Source: Candidatus Avacidaminococcus intestinavium (GTDB lineage Bacteria > Bacillota > Negativicutes > Acidaminococcales > Acidaminococcaceae). Taken from it: a stretch of DNA of 56,190 nucleotides. Below the pieces are notes generated by a model. That model was given only the letters and a program-made list of their open reading frames with translations. It had not been told where the DNA came from and made no database searches. Below are positions 49,007 through 56,183 of this stretch, piece by piece. Each line of letters starts with the position of its first letter. Position 1 is the first letter of the stretch. The stretch is taken from the NCBI GenBank assembly GCA_018714505.1, contig DVNI01000021.1, forward strand, positions 1 to 56,190, in the 5' to 3' direction. Made by a program: the position numbers and the translations under genes.

Positions 49007-49101
49007 TATAGCTTTCATATTTTTTGAGATCGCACCTATTCAAAAATTTCGAACAGGTGCGATACATTTTAATTTCTCTCTTATCAAATAATGTTATTTT
49101 C

Positions 49102-49229
49102 TTGCACAAAAAATAAAACTATGCTAGTATAGCAATATAAAGAGAGATAATCCGATCGGGAACATCGGCTCTCCTTGAAAATTTAAAATTAATTTGAAGA
49201 AGGCCGTGTAACCGTTTACACGGTTTTTT
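49102..49229 (+). ncRNA. Candidate small RNA A with own promoter and terminator
   Basis: TTGCAC(49102)-17-TGCTAGTAT; GAGAG..CCGAT-CGGGAAC-ATCGG-CTCTC hairpin; CCGTGTAA-CCGT-TTACACGG-TTTTTT terminator (49204-49229). Confidence 0.6.
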
Positions 49230-49456: not shown

Positions 49457-49594
49457 CTGCATTTCCATCTCGGTTTTGGCGTCAACCAAATTGCCAAAGA
49501 ACTCGGCATCACTCATCAAGCAGTATCCAAAAATGAAAAAGGCCGCATTAAAACGCTTAAAAAGCATACTAACGAACATCTGAAACTGACCTAA
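49457..49594 (+). pseudogene. Remnant of sigma-70 region 4/HTH-like gene
   Basis: LHFHLGFGVNQIAKELGITHQAVSKNEKGRIKTLKKHTNEHLKLT* in an open frame without a start codon. Confidence 0.5.
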
Positions 49595-49950: not shown

Positions 49951-49999
49951 GCTGTCAACAATTAAATATCGCTAATAGCGATATTTAATTGTTGACAGC
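49951..49999. promoter_or_regulatory. Perfect palindrome (24-bp arms, 1-nt centre), putative XRE operator
   Basis: GCTGTCAACAATTAAATATCGCTA-A-TAGCGATATTTAATTGTTGACAGC; third half-site GCGATATTTGATTG follows. Confidence 0.75.
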
Positions 50000-50020
50000 G
50001 ATATTTGATTGTGATATTAT
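49992..50020 (+). promoter_or_regulatory. Consensus promoter of retron-like operon
   Basis: TTGACA (49992-49997) -17- TATTAT (50015-50020). Confidence 0.8.
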
Positions 50021-50027
50021 ATACTTA

Positions 50028-50280
50028 CAGCGAAAAGCGGGTAAAAATCTGCTGGTCAACTCCCCTAATCTGAAGCATTATTGCTTGTGGGACAATTATA
50101 TTTGTCCTAATTTCTAAGGGCAGCCCAAGAGTTCAGGCCCCGTCCGACTCGTATGCGTCCGCAGAAACGGTCCCGGCTGGGATCCGGGACCGTTTAAACT
50201 GAATTAGATGAGTTATTCTCAGCGCACCAACTCTTTCCTGGGAGGGAATCAATTTAATTTTACTATGGTTCCCGAAGGAG
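50028..50280 (+). ncRNA. Candidate retron ncRNA (msr-msd-like) / structured leader
   Basis: Hairpins 50036-50053, 50073-50086, 50090-50107, 50165-50195 (12-bp perfect GC-rich stem), 50244-50273; GC-rich in an AT-rich context; upstream of the RT. Confidence 0.6.
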
Positions 50281-50287
50281 GTTAGAT

Positions 50288-50467
50288 ATGAAAATATCTT
50301 TAAAATCGCTGAACGCTAAGGATAATCCTAGCAAAGAAAAAATTCGGATTTTGATTAAAGTTCGGTTTGTTCTTCGTAAATCTATTTTTAAAGTTGGTTT
50401 CAGGATTCTCGAAGTTATCTGTTCACTGTTGCAGATAGTCTCACATATTCTATCCTTCTTTAAATAG
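50288..50467 (+). CDS. Cryptic 59-aa cationic/hydrophobic small protein
   Basis: ATG with GAAGGAGG RBS 7-8 nt upstream; MKISLKSLNAKDNPSKEKIRILIKVRFVLRKSIFKVGFRILEVICSLLQIVSHILSFFK*. Confidence 0.5.
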   Translation: MKISLKSLNAKDNPSKEKIRILIKVRFVLRKSIFKVGFRILEVICSLLQIVSHILSFFK

Positions 50468-50558
50468 TTTATGTAAATTGCTTAGGAAGCTCATCTAATT
50501 TTTTTAATACATATTCCATGCTAATATATATCTTTTTTCTCTGAAAGGAGGACTTGTA

Positions 50559-50861
50559 ATGATTGGAGAGATTCTAAAAAAAATAAGAAATATTTATGGT
50601 TATAAAGCTAGTGAACTTAGTAAAAAATTAGGAATATCACAGAGTTTTCTGTCTGAAATTGAAAATAATAAAAAACAACCTTCTTTAGAATTATTAAAAA
50701 AATATTCAGAGATATATGAAATCAAATTGTCTTCACTAATTTTATTATCAGAAAACCTAGAAACAGAGCAACAACAAAGCAAAATACATAACAATGTTTT
50801 CATAAGAAATATGATGATTAATTTCATAAACAAAATGGCAAGTGATAATAAGATTGAATAG
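50559..50861 (+). CDS. XRE-family HTH protein
   Basis: MIGEILKKIRNIYGYKASELSKKLGISQSFLSEIENNKKQPSLELLKKYSEIY; RBS AAAGGAGG. Confidence 0.88.
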   Translation: MIGEILKKIRNIYGYKASELSKKLGISQSFLSEIENNKKQPSLELLKKYSEIYEIKLSSLILLSENLETEQQQSKIHNNVFIRNMMINFINKMASDNKIE

Positions 50862-51786
50862 TATTCAAGATAAATTTAGAAGATATGACATCAACCAATG
50901 TGCTCTGTATAAATGTAAAAGTAAAAAAAAATTAGAAAAACTCTTAAATTTACAAATAGGAGAATTAAAATACATTAATGTTATTACAACTTATTATCAT
51001 TTTGAAATTGCTAAATCTTCTTCACATGAAAAACGCGCTGTTAGTGCTCCAAGTTCAAAGTTAAAATCAATCCAATCAAGAATTTTGTCTTTGATACAGT
51101 ATATTAATAGACCTGGGTGGTTAATATCTGGTGAAAAAGGTAAATCCTATATTAACAATAGTCAATGCCATATTTCCGCAAATTACTTATTAGCCATGGA
51201 CATAAAAAATTTTTATAATAATTGTAAACGTAATCCTGTTTATCTTTTTTTTCTTAATGAATTAAAAACTTCTCCCGATGTGGCCAATGTACTAACAAAC
51301 ATTGTTACTTATGAAAATTTAATTCCAACTGGAGCTCCAACAAGTCAATTAATTGCTTTTCACGCCTATACTAATATGTTTACAGAAATAAATCAAATGG
51401 CGCTAAATTTCGGATGCATATTCACACTATATGTTGACGATATGACTTTTTCTTCTTCAGTACCGTTCAATCATATGTCTTTATCATGTAATATAGACAA
51501 AATTTTGAGAAAACATGGGCATAGACCCAAATATAAAAAGCTGAAATACTATTCTAAAAACGAATCTAAACCTATAACCGGTGCAATACTAACCCCAACT
51601 CATACAATAAAAGTACCGAATAAATTGCGTTATAAAATCCATAATACTTTTCAAAAAATTAAAAACAACTCTAATTTTTCGGATGAAGCCAAAAGCGAGT
51701 TACTGACTTTAAAAGGCCGGCTTCAGGCCGCCAAATCTATCGAAAAAAATATATTTCCAGAAATAAGTCGAATTATAAATTCCTGA
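50842..51786 (+). CDS. Retron-type reverse transcriptase
   Basis: GTG start overlapping xre stop; LLAMDIKNFYNNC (motif A), LIPTGAPTSQLIAFHAY (B), TLYVDDMTFSS (C), KPITGAILTPTHTIKVPNKLR (retron VTG-like region). Confidence 0.85.
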   Translation: MIIRLNSIQDKFRRYDINQCALYKCKSKKKLEKLLNLQIGELKYINVITTYYHFEIAKSSSHEKRAVSAPSSKLKSIQSRILSLIQYINRPGWLISGEKGKSYINNSQCHISANYLLAMDIKNFYNNCKRNPVYLFFLNELKTSPDVANVLTNIVTYENLIPTGAPTSQLIAFHAYTNMFTEINQMALNFGCIFTLYVDDMTFSSSVPFNHMSLSCNIDKILRKHGHRPKYKKLKYYSKNESKPITGAILTPTHTIKVPNKLRYKIHNTFQKIKNNSNFSDEAKSELLTLKGRLQAAKSIEKNIFPEISRIINS

Positions 51787-51874: not shown

Positions 51875-51991
51875 ATAGAAACATAATATTAAATATTTAG
51901 ACTCTATTAATACAAACAGAAATACAATAACCTCTCAATCTGTGCCAAGTAAAAAATAATTATTTTTTCAAATATCGACAATTTTATTTTC

Positions 51992-52123
51992 TTGCACAAA
52001 AAAACAAAACTATGCTAGTATTAGCAATATAAATAGAGATAATCCGATTGGGTATATCGGCTCTCCGGATAATTTAAAATTATTGAAGAAGGGGCCGCTA
52101 CAAAAGTAGCGGCCCCTTCTTCA
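51992..52123 (+). ncRNA. Candidate small RNA B, paralog of small RNA A
   Basis: TTGCAC(51992)-18-TGCTAGTAT; AGAG..CCGAT-TGGGTAT-ATCGG-CTCT hairpin; TGAAGAAGGGGCCGCTAC-AAAA-GTAGCGGCCCCTTCTTCA terminator (52084-52123). Confidence 0.6.
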
Positions 52124-52168: not shown

Positions 52169-55100
52169 TTATAATACACTCATAACATTTAACAAGCTCT
52201 GATAACTATCCACATCGTGATACTTAACATCGGTCGTGGAAATCTCATTAAACAGTTTCTTTGCACAAGAAATTTTTGCTTGCTCAATGGGTCTTAGGTT
52301 TAGGCTATCCATTGTGCCTTTGGTTTCGGCAATGAAGAATATATGCTTAACCGTTCCTTCATAAAAGGCAATCGCCCAGTCAGGAGAGTAGTTGCCAACA
52401 GGGGTAGGAATGTGAAAGCCTTTCGGGAGCTTTGCATAAACGCATACCTCTTGAGCTGTATCCAGGTCCTGCACAAACCGACGTTCAACACTCTGATTGG
52501 CTGTACCATCTGTAAACACATAGTCCTGTATGGCTTTAGTAGCACGGAATGCCTTATCAAAACTCTGGGAACTTTTTTCTGCGGTAAATATTTCACTGTC
52601 ATATTCATCTTCAAGCTGGTCATAGGAAATATGCTCAACAATCATTGTTGCCTTCTGTTCTTTAATAAGTCTAATTACTTTTGAAATAAATTCTTCAGGG
52701 TTGTTCCTGAACATATACAACCTGTCTGCATGAAGTCCTTTCAGTATAGCACTGGCGGTCTTGCGAGTAAGGACAGTTCCTTCTGCAATTTTTCCTACAA
52801 GGTCGTATTTAATCTGGCTTATTTGGGCATGATTCAGTGTCTGTGTTCTTGTTTTTTCACCACCAAAAGATGCTCCACGCTCTAACTCATACTCATTCAT
52901 TTCCGCTTTTTGTTTCCCGATCGTGGCAGTGTACTGAAGCTCAGACACAAAAAGTTTCTCGTTGATATGGGTGATTGCTTTGTGAATAAGTTCATCACTA
53001 TCAAAGGTTGCTGTATAAGCATATTTGTGGTTGATTTGCTTCCATAAAGTTTGAAACTCTATTTTTGCAAAGTTTTCGTTTAGTGGATTGTCCTTAATCT
53101 TGGTTTCGTGGCCATCAGAGAACATAGTATCAAGAACACCGTCATCGTAAACCGCTTGAATCAATGCATGGATTCCCTCAGCCATATGCTTTAGCTCATC
53201 TGGCAGCTCTACCACGGTATTCATAGCAACATCTGTACGATACTTATCTGTGACCTTACGCTTCAGGTCTACATAGCCGTTCTGGATAAGATAAAATTCA
53301 ATCGTATCAGCAGCGGCTTTATCAATAAGGGTCGGTGTACCGTCAACTTTAACATACTTACCATTGAAGTATTCACTTGTAGCAACAGTAGGTCTGTCAT
53401 ACAGTACGATTTTCATGTCGGATTGCAGATCGGATACAAATCCTTTATAGCTTTCGCTTGCAATAACGGTTAGCAGATTGATATCGTGGACGGTTTCACC
53501 GCAGCTTTCCATATCCATGCGATTGCCGCTTTGATTTACGCAAAGTCTCAGCCCACGTCCAACCTCTTGGCGTTTTGCTGTTTGATTATCAGAATGCTTG
53601 AGCGTACAAATTTGGAAAACATTTGGATTATCCCAGCCTTCACGCAGCGCAGAGTGAGAAAAGATAAACCGAGTTGGCTCACCAAGACTGAGCAGTAGCT
53701 CCTTGTTTTTGAGTATCAACTCATAGGCTGAAATATCATCAGAGAACTCGCTGCCACGTTTCAGCTGACTGTCAACACTTTTTCCTGTCTTTTTATCAAT
53801 ACTAAAATAGCCCTTGTGAACAGCCGATACATCACTACAAGTAGACTTCAAATACCTCTGATACGGTGTATCGAACAAGGTAAGATGCCCGTTGAGTATA
53901 TTTATGTATTCCTGCTCGAACATCTCGCCGTATTCCCCCAGCACTTCATCACCATTTTCATCATACTGGCGATATTTTGCTACTTCATCAATAAAGAATA
54001 GGGATAGAGATTTGATGCCCATATTGTAGAGCTTTTCTTCTTTTTCAAAGTGGGACAAAATCGTTTCTCGAATTTGAATACGTCGCATATCGTTTTCAGA
54101 AACATCGCCTACCACATCTCCTGTACGAATGACTTCACCATTGGTAAAAGTTACTGCTCTACGAAGCGGGTCAATCTCTGAAACCGTATAGCCTTTGTAC
54201 TGTTCCATTTCTTGTGAAATATGATACAGGTCATCGTTCACACCAAGAATTCGTGTTTCACGGTTAATTGACTTATTATATCTGATTTCAAGTTCCATAC
54301 GAGCCATTGGTGGTTTTTTATTCGATAGCACAATTTGCTCAAGGTATAGATAACTATCTGTACCCCTGAAGTTCTTCACCTCAAAGCCCTTGACCTCAAT
54401 CTTTTTCACCAGCTTCTTGTTAAATGCCTCCAACGCATCCAGCACATATACAAGATTGTGCTGCTGCTTATGTGTTGCAGAATAGTTGAGGAAAAAAAGG
54501 GGATTAAAGTTTTTAAGAGCCTTCTGAGTGACATCCCCACCCATTTTTTGCGGCTCATCCAAAATAATAATAGGGCGGTTTGCCTTGATGACATCAATGG
54601 GGCGGCGAGAGCCAAACTCATCACGCTTGGAGTAAATAATACGAGCTTCCTTACTTCTGCCATCCTCCTTGAGAGAAGAAGCAAAGGCTTGTGTATTGAT
54701 AATCATGACATTGATACCGGAACTACTTGAAAAATTGTCCAACTGATTTAGGTTAGAACTGTTGTATACAAAGAAACGGGCCTTTTTCCTGTAATACTGC
54801 ATAAAATGATCGGTGGTGATTTCAAACGATTTCTTCACACCCTCACGAATTGCAATGCTTGGTACTACTACAATAAATTTGCTCCAACCATAATTTTTGT
54901 TCAGCTCGAACATGGTCTTGATATAAACATAGGTTTTACCAGTACCTGTTTCCATGTCAATGTCAAGACTACAACGTCCCAAAGACTTTACTAGAGAAGA
55001 TGAACGCTTAATGTTATTTTCATTTTGTAAGGTTTGAATATTTTTCAAAAGCTGTTCGTCTGTTAATGCAATGGATTCATTTCTGTAGCCAGTGTCATTT

Positions 55101-55285
55101 GTCGGGTCTAGAAGCTCCATTTCCTCATCAGAGGCAACGAATTGTATTTGCTGATTTTCCGGTTTCATCTTACCAATATCACGGATATAGCTTAGTTTAT
55201 CGTGATAACCTTGTCCGTTAAAGGCCTTGACAACAGCATCAACGGCATCAGTTTGATACCGTTGTATCTTAAAGTTAAACTTCAT
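52169..55285 (-). CDS. Type III restriction endonuclease subunit (Res-like DEAD helicase + nuclease)
   Basis: DIDMETGTGKTYVYIKTMFELNK, IIILDEPQKMG, NYSATH, FSHSALREGWDNPNVFQIC, SPDWAIAFYE..FIAETKG nuclease-like C-terminus. Confidence 0.88.
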   Translation of the reverse strand: MKFNFKIQRYQTDAVDAVVKAFNGQGYHDKLSYIRDIGKMKPENQQIQFVASDEEMELLDPTNDTGYRNESIALTDEQLLKNIQTLQNENNIKRSSSLVKSLGRCSLDIDMETGTGKTYVYIKTMFELNKNYGWSKFIVVVPSIAIREGVKKSFEITTDHFMQYYRKKARFFVYNSSNLNQLDNFSSSSGINVMIINTQAFASSLKEDGRSKEARIIYSKRDEFGSRRPIDVIKANRPIIILDEPQKMGGDVTQKALKNFNPLFFLNYSATHKQQHNLVYVLDALEAFNKKLVKKIEVKGFEVKNFRGTDSYLYLEQIVLSNKKPPMARMELEIRYNKSINRETRILGVNDDLYHISQEMEQYKGYTVSEIDPLRRAVTFTNGEVIRTGDVVGDVSENDMRRIQIRETILSHFEKEEKLYNMGIKSLSLFFIDEVAKYRQYDENGDEVLGEYGEMFEQEYINILNGHLTLFDTPYQRYLKSTCSDVSAVHKGYFSIDKKTGKSVDSQLKRGSEFSDDISAYELILKNKELLLSLGEPTRFIFSHSALREGWDNPNVFQICTLKHSDNQTAKRQEVGRGLRLCVNQSGNRMDMESCGETVHDINLLTVIASESYKGFVSDLQSDMKIVLYDRPTVATSEYFNGKYVKVDGTPTLIDKAAADTIEFYLIQNGYVDLKRKVTDKYRTDVAMNTVVELPDELKHMAEGIHALIQAVYDDGVLDTMFSDGHETKIKDNPLNENFAKIEFQTLWKQINHKYAYTATFDSDELIHKAITHINEKLFVSELQYTATIGKQKAEMNEYELERGASFGGEKTRTQTLNHAQISQIKYDLVGKIAEGTVLTRKTASAILKGLHADRLYMFRNNPEEFISKVIRLIKEQKATMIVEHISYDQLEDEYDSEIFTAEKSSQSFDKAFRATKAIQDYVFTDGTANQSVERRFVQDLDTAQEVCVYAKLPKGFHIPTPVGNYSPDWAIAFYEGTVKHIFFIAETKGTMDSLNLRPIEQAKISCAKKLFNEISTTDVKYHDVDSYQSLLNVMSVL

Positions 55286-56183
55286 CTGTGTCATCACCTC
55301 CTGTAATTTCATCTTCCTGCTCGTAGTAATAGGAGTAGTCTACACCTTTCATAAAGACCTCACGATCAGCTATTTTATCGGTCAAGGCATTATGTAACAG
55401 AGTTTTTATCAAGGCTGAGTTTGCAACACTTTTTTCCATGGCAGAAAGGTAATCTTTTTTTCCAATCTTGCTCCAATCAATACATTGCTTCAAATTTTTC
55501 TTCAAAATCAAATCAAGCCAGATGCGAGTGCTTCTTCCATTGCCCTCCATAAACGGATGAGCGACATTCATCTCTACATATTTATCAATTATTTCATCAA
55601 AGCTATTTTCGTGCATCAATTGAATTCTTTTTAATGTTTCAGGTAAAAACCGAGCCATTGCAAACTGAAAGCCACCCTTGGCAATGTTCAAAGTTCGTAT
55701 TTGCCCTGCAAAGTCATATAATCCGCCGAATAGATAGCCGTGTATTTGCTGCAAACCTTTTACGGTACCACCCTCTATTGTGCCAAGCAAAGAGCTATCA
55801 AAAAGAGCATATGCTTTTGATTTACTTTTGCCGTCAATGGTTTCGTCGCTATATGTGAACCATTCGATAAAGCGATTTGCCTGTTTACTGGGAAAATTTT
55901 TCGCAAGTTCAATAACTCCGGCATAATCAAATGTATCTGTTTTATATTTTTTACCGTCAGCGGCGGTCAATTTCAGTTGGGTAGTGCGACTAACCAACTC
56001 TCCATTTTCCTTTTTGAGCTTTGCTTTGAGATACTTCCAATAATTTCGGTTTTTCTCATAATCCGTTTCGTCACGGAGCACTCCAACAATATCAAGCACC
56101 GAAAACCACCATTTGGAATTTGCATCATCCCAAACGGCACGAACCTCCGTATCGTCAAAAAATCGAATTGAAATTTTATCCAT
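55275..56183 (-). CDS. Fic domain protein with Bro-N/RhuM-like N-terminal domain
   Basis: HPFMEGNGRSTRIW Fic motif; N-terminal IRFFDDTEVRAVWDDANSKWWFSVLDIVGVL; 11-nt ATGAAGTTTAA overlap with res. Confidence 0.82.
   Translation of the reverse strand: MDKISIRFFDDTEVRAVWDDANSKWWFSVLDIVGVLRDETDYEKNRNYWKYLKAKLKKENGELVSRTTQLKLTAADGKKYKTDTFDYAGVIELAKNFPSKQANRFIEWFTYSDETIDGKSKSKAYALFDSSLLGTIEGGTVKGLQQIHGYLFGGLYDFAGQIRTLNIAKGGFQFAMARFLPETLKRIQLMHENSFDEIIDKYVEMNVAHPFMEGNGRSTRIWLDLILKKNLKQCIDWSKIGKKDYLSAMEKSVANSALIKTLLHNALTDKIADREVFMKGVDYSYYYEQEDEITGGDDTDEV

Follow-up and report, generated by a model that had tools for sequence, protein, structure and literature searches.

The window, a stretch of 56,190 nt from contig DVNI01000021.1 of the Candidatus Avacidaminococcus intestinavium assembly GCA_018714505.1, whose positions are used as coordinates throughout, carries at 49951-51786 a palindrome with a promoter, a structured leader RNA, a small ORF, an xre gene and a reverse transcriptase (RT) gene, in this order on the + strand. 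The palindrome (49951-49999) and the consensus promoter reported in the first-pass annotation are both present. The former is composed of two 24-nt arms (49951-49974 and 49976-49999) that are 100% complementary across a 1-nt spacer, and the latter (49992-50020, + strand), by direct reading, of a -35 hexamer TTGACA (49992-49997), a 17-nt spacer and a -10 hexamer TATTAT (50015-50020). The palindrome core, ATCGCTAATAGCGAT, shows 2 mismatches to the family operator TTCGCNNNNNGCGAA, which occurs in most relatives, usually as an exact copy, about 250-360 nt upstream of the small ORF; the palindrome is probably the operator by which the XRE protein represses the shared promoter. As TTGACA is found on both palindrome strands, a divergent minus-strand promoter is possible; no gene is evident on that side.

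Identity of the retron genes and their neighbourhood

The xre gene (50559-50861, + strand) encodes an XRE/Cro-type HTH protein that matches the PADLOC profile HTH_VI (E 1.4e-29) and Pfam HTH_3 (E 3e-13), and the RT gene (50842-51786, + strand) begins, as annotated, at a GTG codon and shares its first 20 nt with the 3' end of xre. The RT is best matched by PADLOC RT_VI (E 3.2e-86, 287 bits, against 133 bits for the runner-up retron profile) and also matches Pfam RVT_1. The motifs on which a retron-like RT had been proposed were found in the translation, which includes YVDD, N-S-Q-C-H (NxxxH) and I-T-G; YVDD, NxxxH and (V/I)TG are conserved in RT alignment A1, with the N, the H and the T-G being invariant. 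Placement among retron RTs, rather than outside the retron clades, is indicated both by the profile match and by the nearest relatives of solved structure in the PDB, which by sequence are retron RTs, Ec86 first. The further suggestion of an HTH-associated retron type agrees with the HTH_VI match, type VI retrons being composed of genes for an RT, a DNA-binding protein and a small auxiliary protein according to PMC8541194, which cites Mestre 2020. By sequence, the RT and the XRE protein are a type VI retron pair.

The retron is bracketed by a direct repeat of ~113 nt, 89% identical between its two copies (49090-49203 and 51980-52092), each of which is followed by a hairpin and a T run; no further full copy was found in the genome, and the repeat may represent either a small RNA in duplicate or the trace of a cassette insertion. 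The + strand at 49463-49594 encodes a short peptide of HTH-like sequence (HLGFGVNQIAKELGITHQAVSKNEKG...) that lacks a clear start and is probably a gene remnant. Next to the retron, 52169-56183 encodes the res subunit of a Type III restriction system (REase_III, E 2e-282) together with a BRO-N/Fic protein (PDC-S04), and judging from this gene content the retron and these neighbours form a defence island.

The small ORF and its product

Relatives of the locus were drawn from plasmids, phages, species genomes and E. coli. In the search of genome contigs, a single-protein query returned 0 relatives and an alignment query returned 80 loci. Among the relatives, the weaker matches L003-L008 were left out; L002 is a type VI locus whose xre gene and small ORF are encoded on the minus strand. 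The nucleotide search of E. coli gave matches only at the RT level (39 of 5426 genomes) and led to prophage copies, including two P2-like prophages (L145 and L146), one of them in O157:H7, with type VI-like retrons and a 51-aa small ORF. Nearly all complete xre-bearing loci examined have a small ORF located after the leader and before xre, and they range from Staphylococcus plasmids, Clostridia and spirochaetes to E. coli prophages.

The products of these ORFs are 32-69 aa long and basic, with a C-terminal amphipathic helix; among 55 curated small proteins the median length is 54 aa and the median net charge +7, the charge being positive in 54. The window ORF (50288-50467, + strand) encodes a protein of 59 aa with a net charge of +10 and a long C-terminal amphipathic helix, modelled as a single long helix spanning residues 14-58 (C-terminal pLDDT 86-93). 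The amphipathicity exceeds that of shuffled sequences only modestly (mean z 1.3) and so is not taken as proof. In three of four groups, the C-terminal half is under purifying selection at the protein level, with median dN/dS values of 0.26, 0.23 and 0.25; the value of 0.61 in the fourth group, three near-identical Staphylococcus copies, is uninformative because so few changes separate them. These values of about 0.25, the annotation of the ORF as a protein in several records and the conservation of its position and character across phyla make it highly improbable that the ORF is spurious and its pairing with the leader, described below, ordinary RNA structure, even though the ORF is short and its sequence identity between groups low.

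The small protein has no matching model, and no toxin family match, in Pfam, NCBIfam or PADLOC, and its phage copies fall in PHROGs families of unknown function. This lack of a toxin match and the term "small auxiliary protein", as used in PMC8541194, would fit a protein that serves the RT complex as an auxiliary subunit or a regulator, with the XRE protein or an unlinked factor as the effector. Such a role is considered improbable, since the buried ribosome site, the basic amphipathic helix and the strong turnover of the sequence are reminiscent of type I-like toxins, and one family member gives a marginal match (E 0.009) to the bacteriocin model aureocin A53. From these features, the small protein is probably a toxic, membrane-active effector, which would explain the absence of a large effector gene. 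In Fontibacillus (L065:2471-2520), an in-frame TAG lies about 10 codons into the small ORF with xre and RT open, so that the small protein is dispensable in this natural knockout.

Pairing between the leader RNA and the small ORF

The a1 segment CAGCGA (50028-50033, + strand) sits at the predicted transcript 5' end and, in aligned relatives, directly downstream of the -10 hexamer; its partner a2, TCGCTG (50306-50311, + strand), occupies small-ORF codons 7-8. Downstream of a1 lies an msr-like region with three short hairpins (50036-50109, + strand), supported by RNAalifold, pair counts (helices 2 and 3) and folding; the first hairpin is followed by an invariant GGTC in alignment A3, with no G assignable there as the branching guanosine. 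The predicted msd (template) region (50110-50305, + strand), its extent inferred by analogy with retrons from the position of a1:a2, contains a GC-rich hairpin (50165-50176/50184-50195, + strand), the 5' strands of two long-range helices, P1 and P2, the Shine-Dalgarno hairpin, and the beginning of the small ORF with its start codon and first few codons. In P1, AATTAGATGAG (50202-50212, + strand) pairs with CTCATCTAATT (50490-50500, + strand), 22 nt past the small-ORF stop codon; in P2, TTATTCTCAGCG (50213-50224, + strand) pairs, with one mismatch, with CGCTAAGGATAA (50314-50325, + strand), within the small ORF and 2 nt 3' of a2. The P3/P4 hairpin (50231-50280, + strand) is formed by CTCTTTC (50231-50237) and GAAGGAG (50274-50280), the latter comprising the Shine-Dalgarno sequence, above which GGGAATCA (50244-50251) pairs with TGGTTCCC (50266-50273) as the inner stem.

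Of the ~250 nt of structured non-coding leader originally described, the structure stands (50025-50290, z = -2.6 against shuffles); a separate non-coding RNA does not, as the helices reach into and past the ORF, and the fold of 50020-50510 (491 nt, ORF included) gives z = -4.7. A scan against Rfam returned no match. The 59-aa ORF is present as annotated, with AGGAGG ahead of it, and the ribosome-binding site is not freely accessible: the Shine-Dalgarno sequence has a predicted mean unpaired probability of about 0.10 and is buried in every modelled fold.

Conservation of the upstream RNA structure in homologues, the absence of which would have counted against the first-pass annotation, was examined in 15 loci aligned from the promoter to past the small ORF. 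Five helices were 97.8% paired, with compensatory changes in 22 of 39 pairs, a score matched by 0 of 500 shuffles, and structures slid along the alignment were only 33-43% paired. Helix 1 (a1:a2) has compensatory changes in 4 of its 6 pairs, with the variants CAGCGA/TCGCTG, CAACGA/TCGTTG, CAGTGA/TCACTG and CAGCAT/ATGCTG; helix 4 (P1) is 98.8% paired with compensatory changes in 5 pairs, and helix 5 (P2) has them in 6 of 10. In general, the partner of a1, itself at the transcript 5' end, falls within roughly codons 4-10 of the small ORF. RNAalifold predicted P1 and P2 unprompted, across about 110 and 350 columns; a1:a2 is absent from this prediction because it crosses P1/P2. P1 is clear mainly in Bacillota, and the window P2, owing to its one mismatch, was missed by automatic best-stem picking and is revealed by the alignment.

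A permutation test compared the pairing of each leader with its own ORF to that of leaders and ORFs from different loci, across 38 to 43 divergent loci. The z scores were 12.8 for a1:a2, 10.4 for P1, 12.8 for P2 and 8.4 for P3, each with 0 of 20000 permutations as high, against -1.6 and 1.1 for two control segments. Under independent shuffling in 29 representative loci, a1:a2 gave a combined p of 2e-16, with 16 loci individually below 0.05. Together, these comparisons show that the leader RNA and the small ORF form one conserved structure, in which the template RNA would overlap the start of the small ORF.

The crossing of a1:a2 by P1/P2 implies a pseudoknot or alternative folds, between which the energy models used do not discriminate. 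Across 33 loci the median gap between a2 and the P2 3' strand is 1 nt, and such abutment is the geometry of a stacked pseudoknot. In L083 and L084, a2 overlaps the P2 3' strand by 2-4 nt, which would put a1:a2 and P2 in competition where they meet and hints at a switch. The N-terminal sequence of the small proteins is apparently shaped by the RNA structure; the N-terminal motif KSLFMQD (L042:2395-2583 and relatives) coincides with a2 and P2. In the E. coli prophage copies, the pairings TTGGTTA/TAACCAA and TGCTGTTC/GAACAGCA, as well as TCCTTATG/CATAAGGA over the ribosome site, were identified by eye.

Two other pairings were rejected. P1 (50202-50212/50490-50500) was considered as the retron a1:a2 helix and dropped because it starts about 175 nt into the transcript, the 5' end of which pairs inside the ORF instead. 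A 7-bp pairing of 50065-50071 with the Shine-Dalgarno region, seen in one fold, is absent from relatives.

A proposed antitoxin role for the reverse transcriptase

Because the template RNA runs into the start of the toxin gene, it is suggested that the RT probably silences the toxin by holding or destroying its mRNA. In general terms, the prospects are about even that the RT and its RNA act as a cis antitoxin which occludes or consumes the toxin translation start, phage interference then releasing the toxin. A more specific proposal, put forward tentatively, treats type VI retrons as toxin-antitoxin systems whose antitoxin activity is reverse transcription of the toxin mRNA start, the RT priming inside the ORF and converting the ribosome site and start codon into msDNA. 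One transcript would constitute the unit, encompassing the leader RNA, a small amphipathic toxin, an XRE autorepressor acting on the shared promoter through the palindrome, and the RT. With a1 at the transcript 5' end and a2 in the first toxin codons, the RNA would form a pseudoknot with P2, and P3 would bury the ribosome site. In characterised retrons, a1:a2 places the priming guanosine beside the template just 5' of a2. By analogy, the RT would bind the leader/ORF fold, prime near a1:a2 and copy upstream, starting at small-ORF codon 6 and passing through the start codon and the Shine-Dalgarno sequence. Its binding would block the ribosome, and msDNA synthesis with loss of the template strand would destroy the toxin start site, the xre and RT cistrons being spared through their own downstream ribosome sites. 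If a phage inhibits or titrates the RT or the msDNA, or lifts XRE repression to the point where transcripts outnumber RT capacity, the toxin would be translated, insert in the membrane and stop the infected cell. In this scheme we infer toxicity, the RT start site, RNA consumption and the trigger.

The P3 hairpin alone could silence the small ORF, leaving the RT an indirect role. Retron antitoxin action has been described as RT-msDNA binding of the effector protein, and retrons of other types are reported in PMC12548924 to sequester effector proteins in RT-ncRNA-msDNA complexes. Were this canonical logic to apply here, the RT-msDNA complex would neutralise the small toxin (or the XRE protein) as a protein, and the leader/ORF pairing would only lower translation, for which a Shine-Dalgarno sequence buried in all modelled folds would be sufficient. 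We regard this as conceivable but unlikely, as it does not account for the location of a2 and P2 within codons, nor for their covariation with the transcript 5' end in widely divergent loci. The RT might instead be a structural antitoxin only, blocking the ribosome via the pseudoknot that brackets the start codon, with msDNA made from elsewhere in the leader serving as a separate sensor; the conservation of YVDD in alignment A1 would be in keeping with this. It is a doubtful reading: in characterised retrons the priming site is determined by a1:a2, and this points to the start region being copied.

The gene content and order of type VI retrons are not new, as small auxiliary proteins are listed in PMC8541194. 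The features of the small-ORF family and the leader/ORF covariation were found nowhere in the literature searched, and the mechanism is possibly new: that literature contained no account of a type VI mechanism, no report of a retron RNA overlapping a small ORF and none of the function of the small protein, although recent subscription papers or preprints may exist. The translation start of a probable effector would here be part of the template RNA, an arrangement whose conservation extends from Clostridia and plasmids of Staphylococcus to prophages of E. coli. For an entire retron type, the function of which was found unreported in that literature, this offers both a candidate effector and a mechanism open to testing, and, if true, would represent a new mode of gene control by a reverse transcriptase, namely consumption of the message.

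Comparison with known systems

Tripartite retrons, Ec86 (Eco1) among them, have their a2 in non-coding RNA and a separate, larger protein as effector. The present locus shares with them an a1:a2 helix that joins the ends of a hairpin-rich RNA, and differs in that a2 is situated within small-ORF codons. The closest relatives are the type VI retrons (PADLOC retron VI; Mestre 2020 classification), with which it shares strong RT_VI and HTH_VI matches and the gene order described in PMC8541194. As in the type I toxin-antitoxin system tisB/istR, a small amphipathic protein is encoded by a structured mRNA with a sequestered ribosome site, and active tisB mRNA also requires a pseudoknot, according to PMC7708055; unlike in type I systems, no antisense RNA gene is evident here, and the proposed cis antitoxin is the RT with its RNA/DNA product. 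In DRT2, an RT builds a toxic gene from non-coding RNA, as outlined in PMC12039810. Both systems would involve an RT acting on RNA tied to the expression of a toxic protein, whereas the ORF described here is already genomic and its RT, a member of the retron family, would silence the toxin gene rather than create it.
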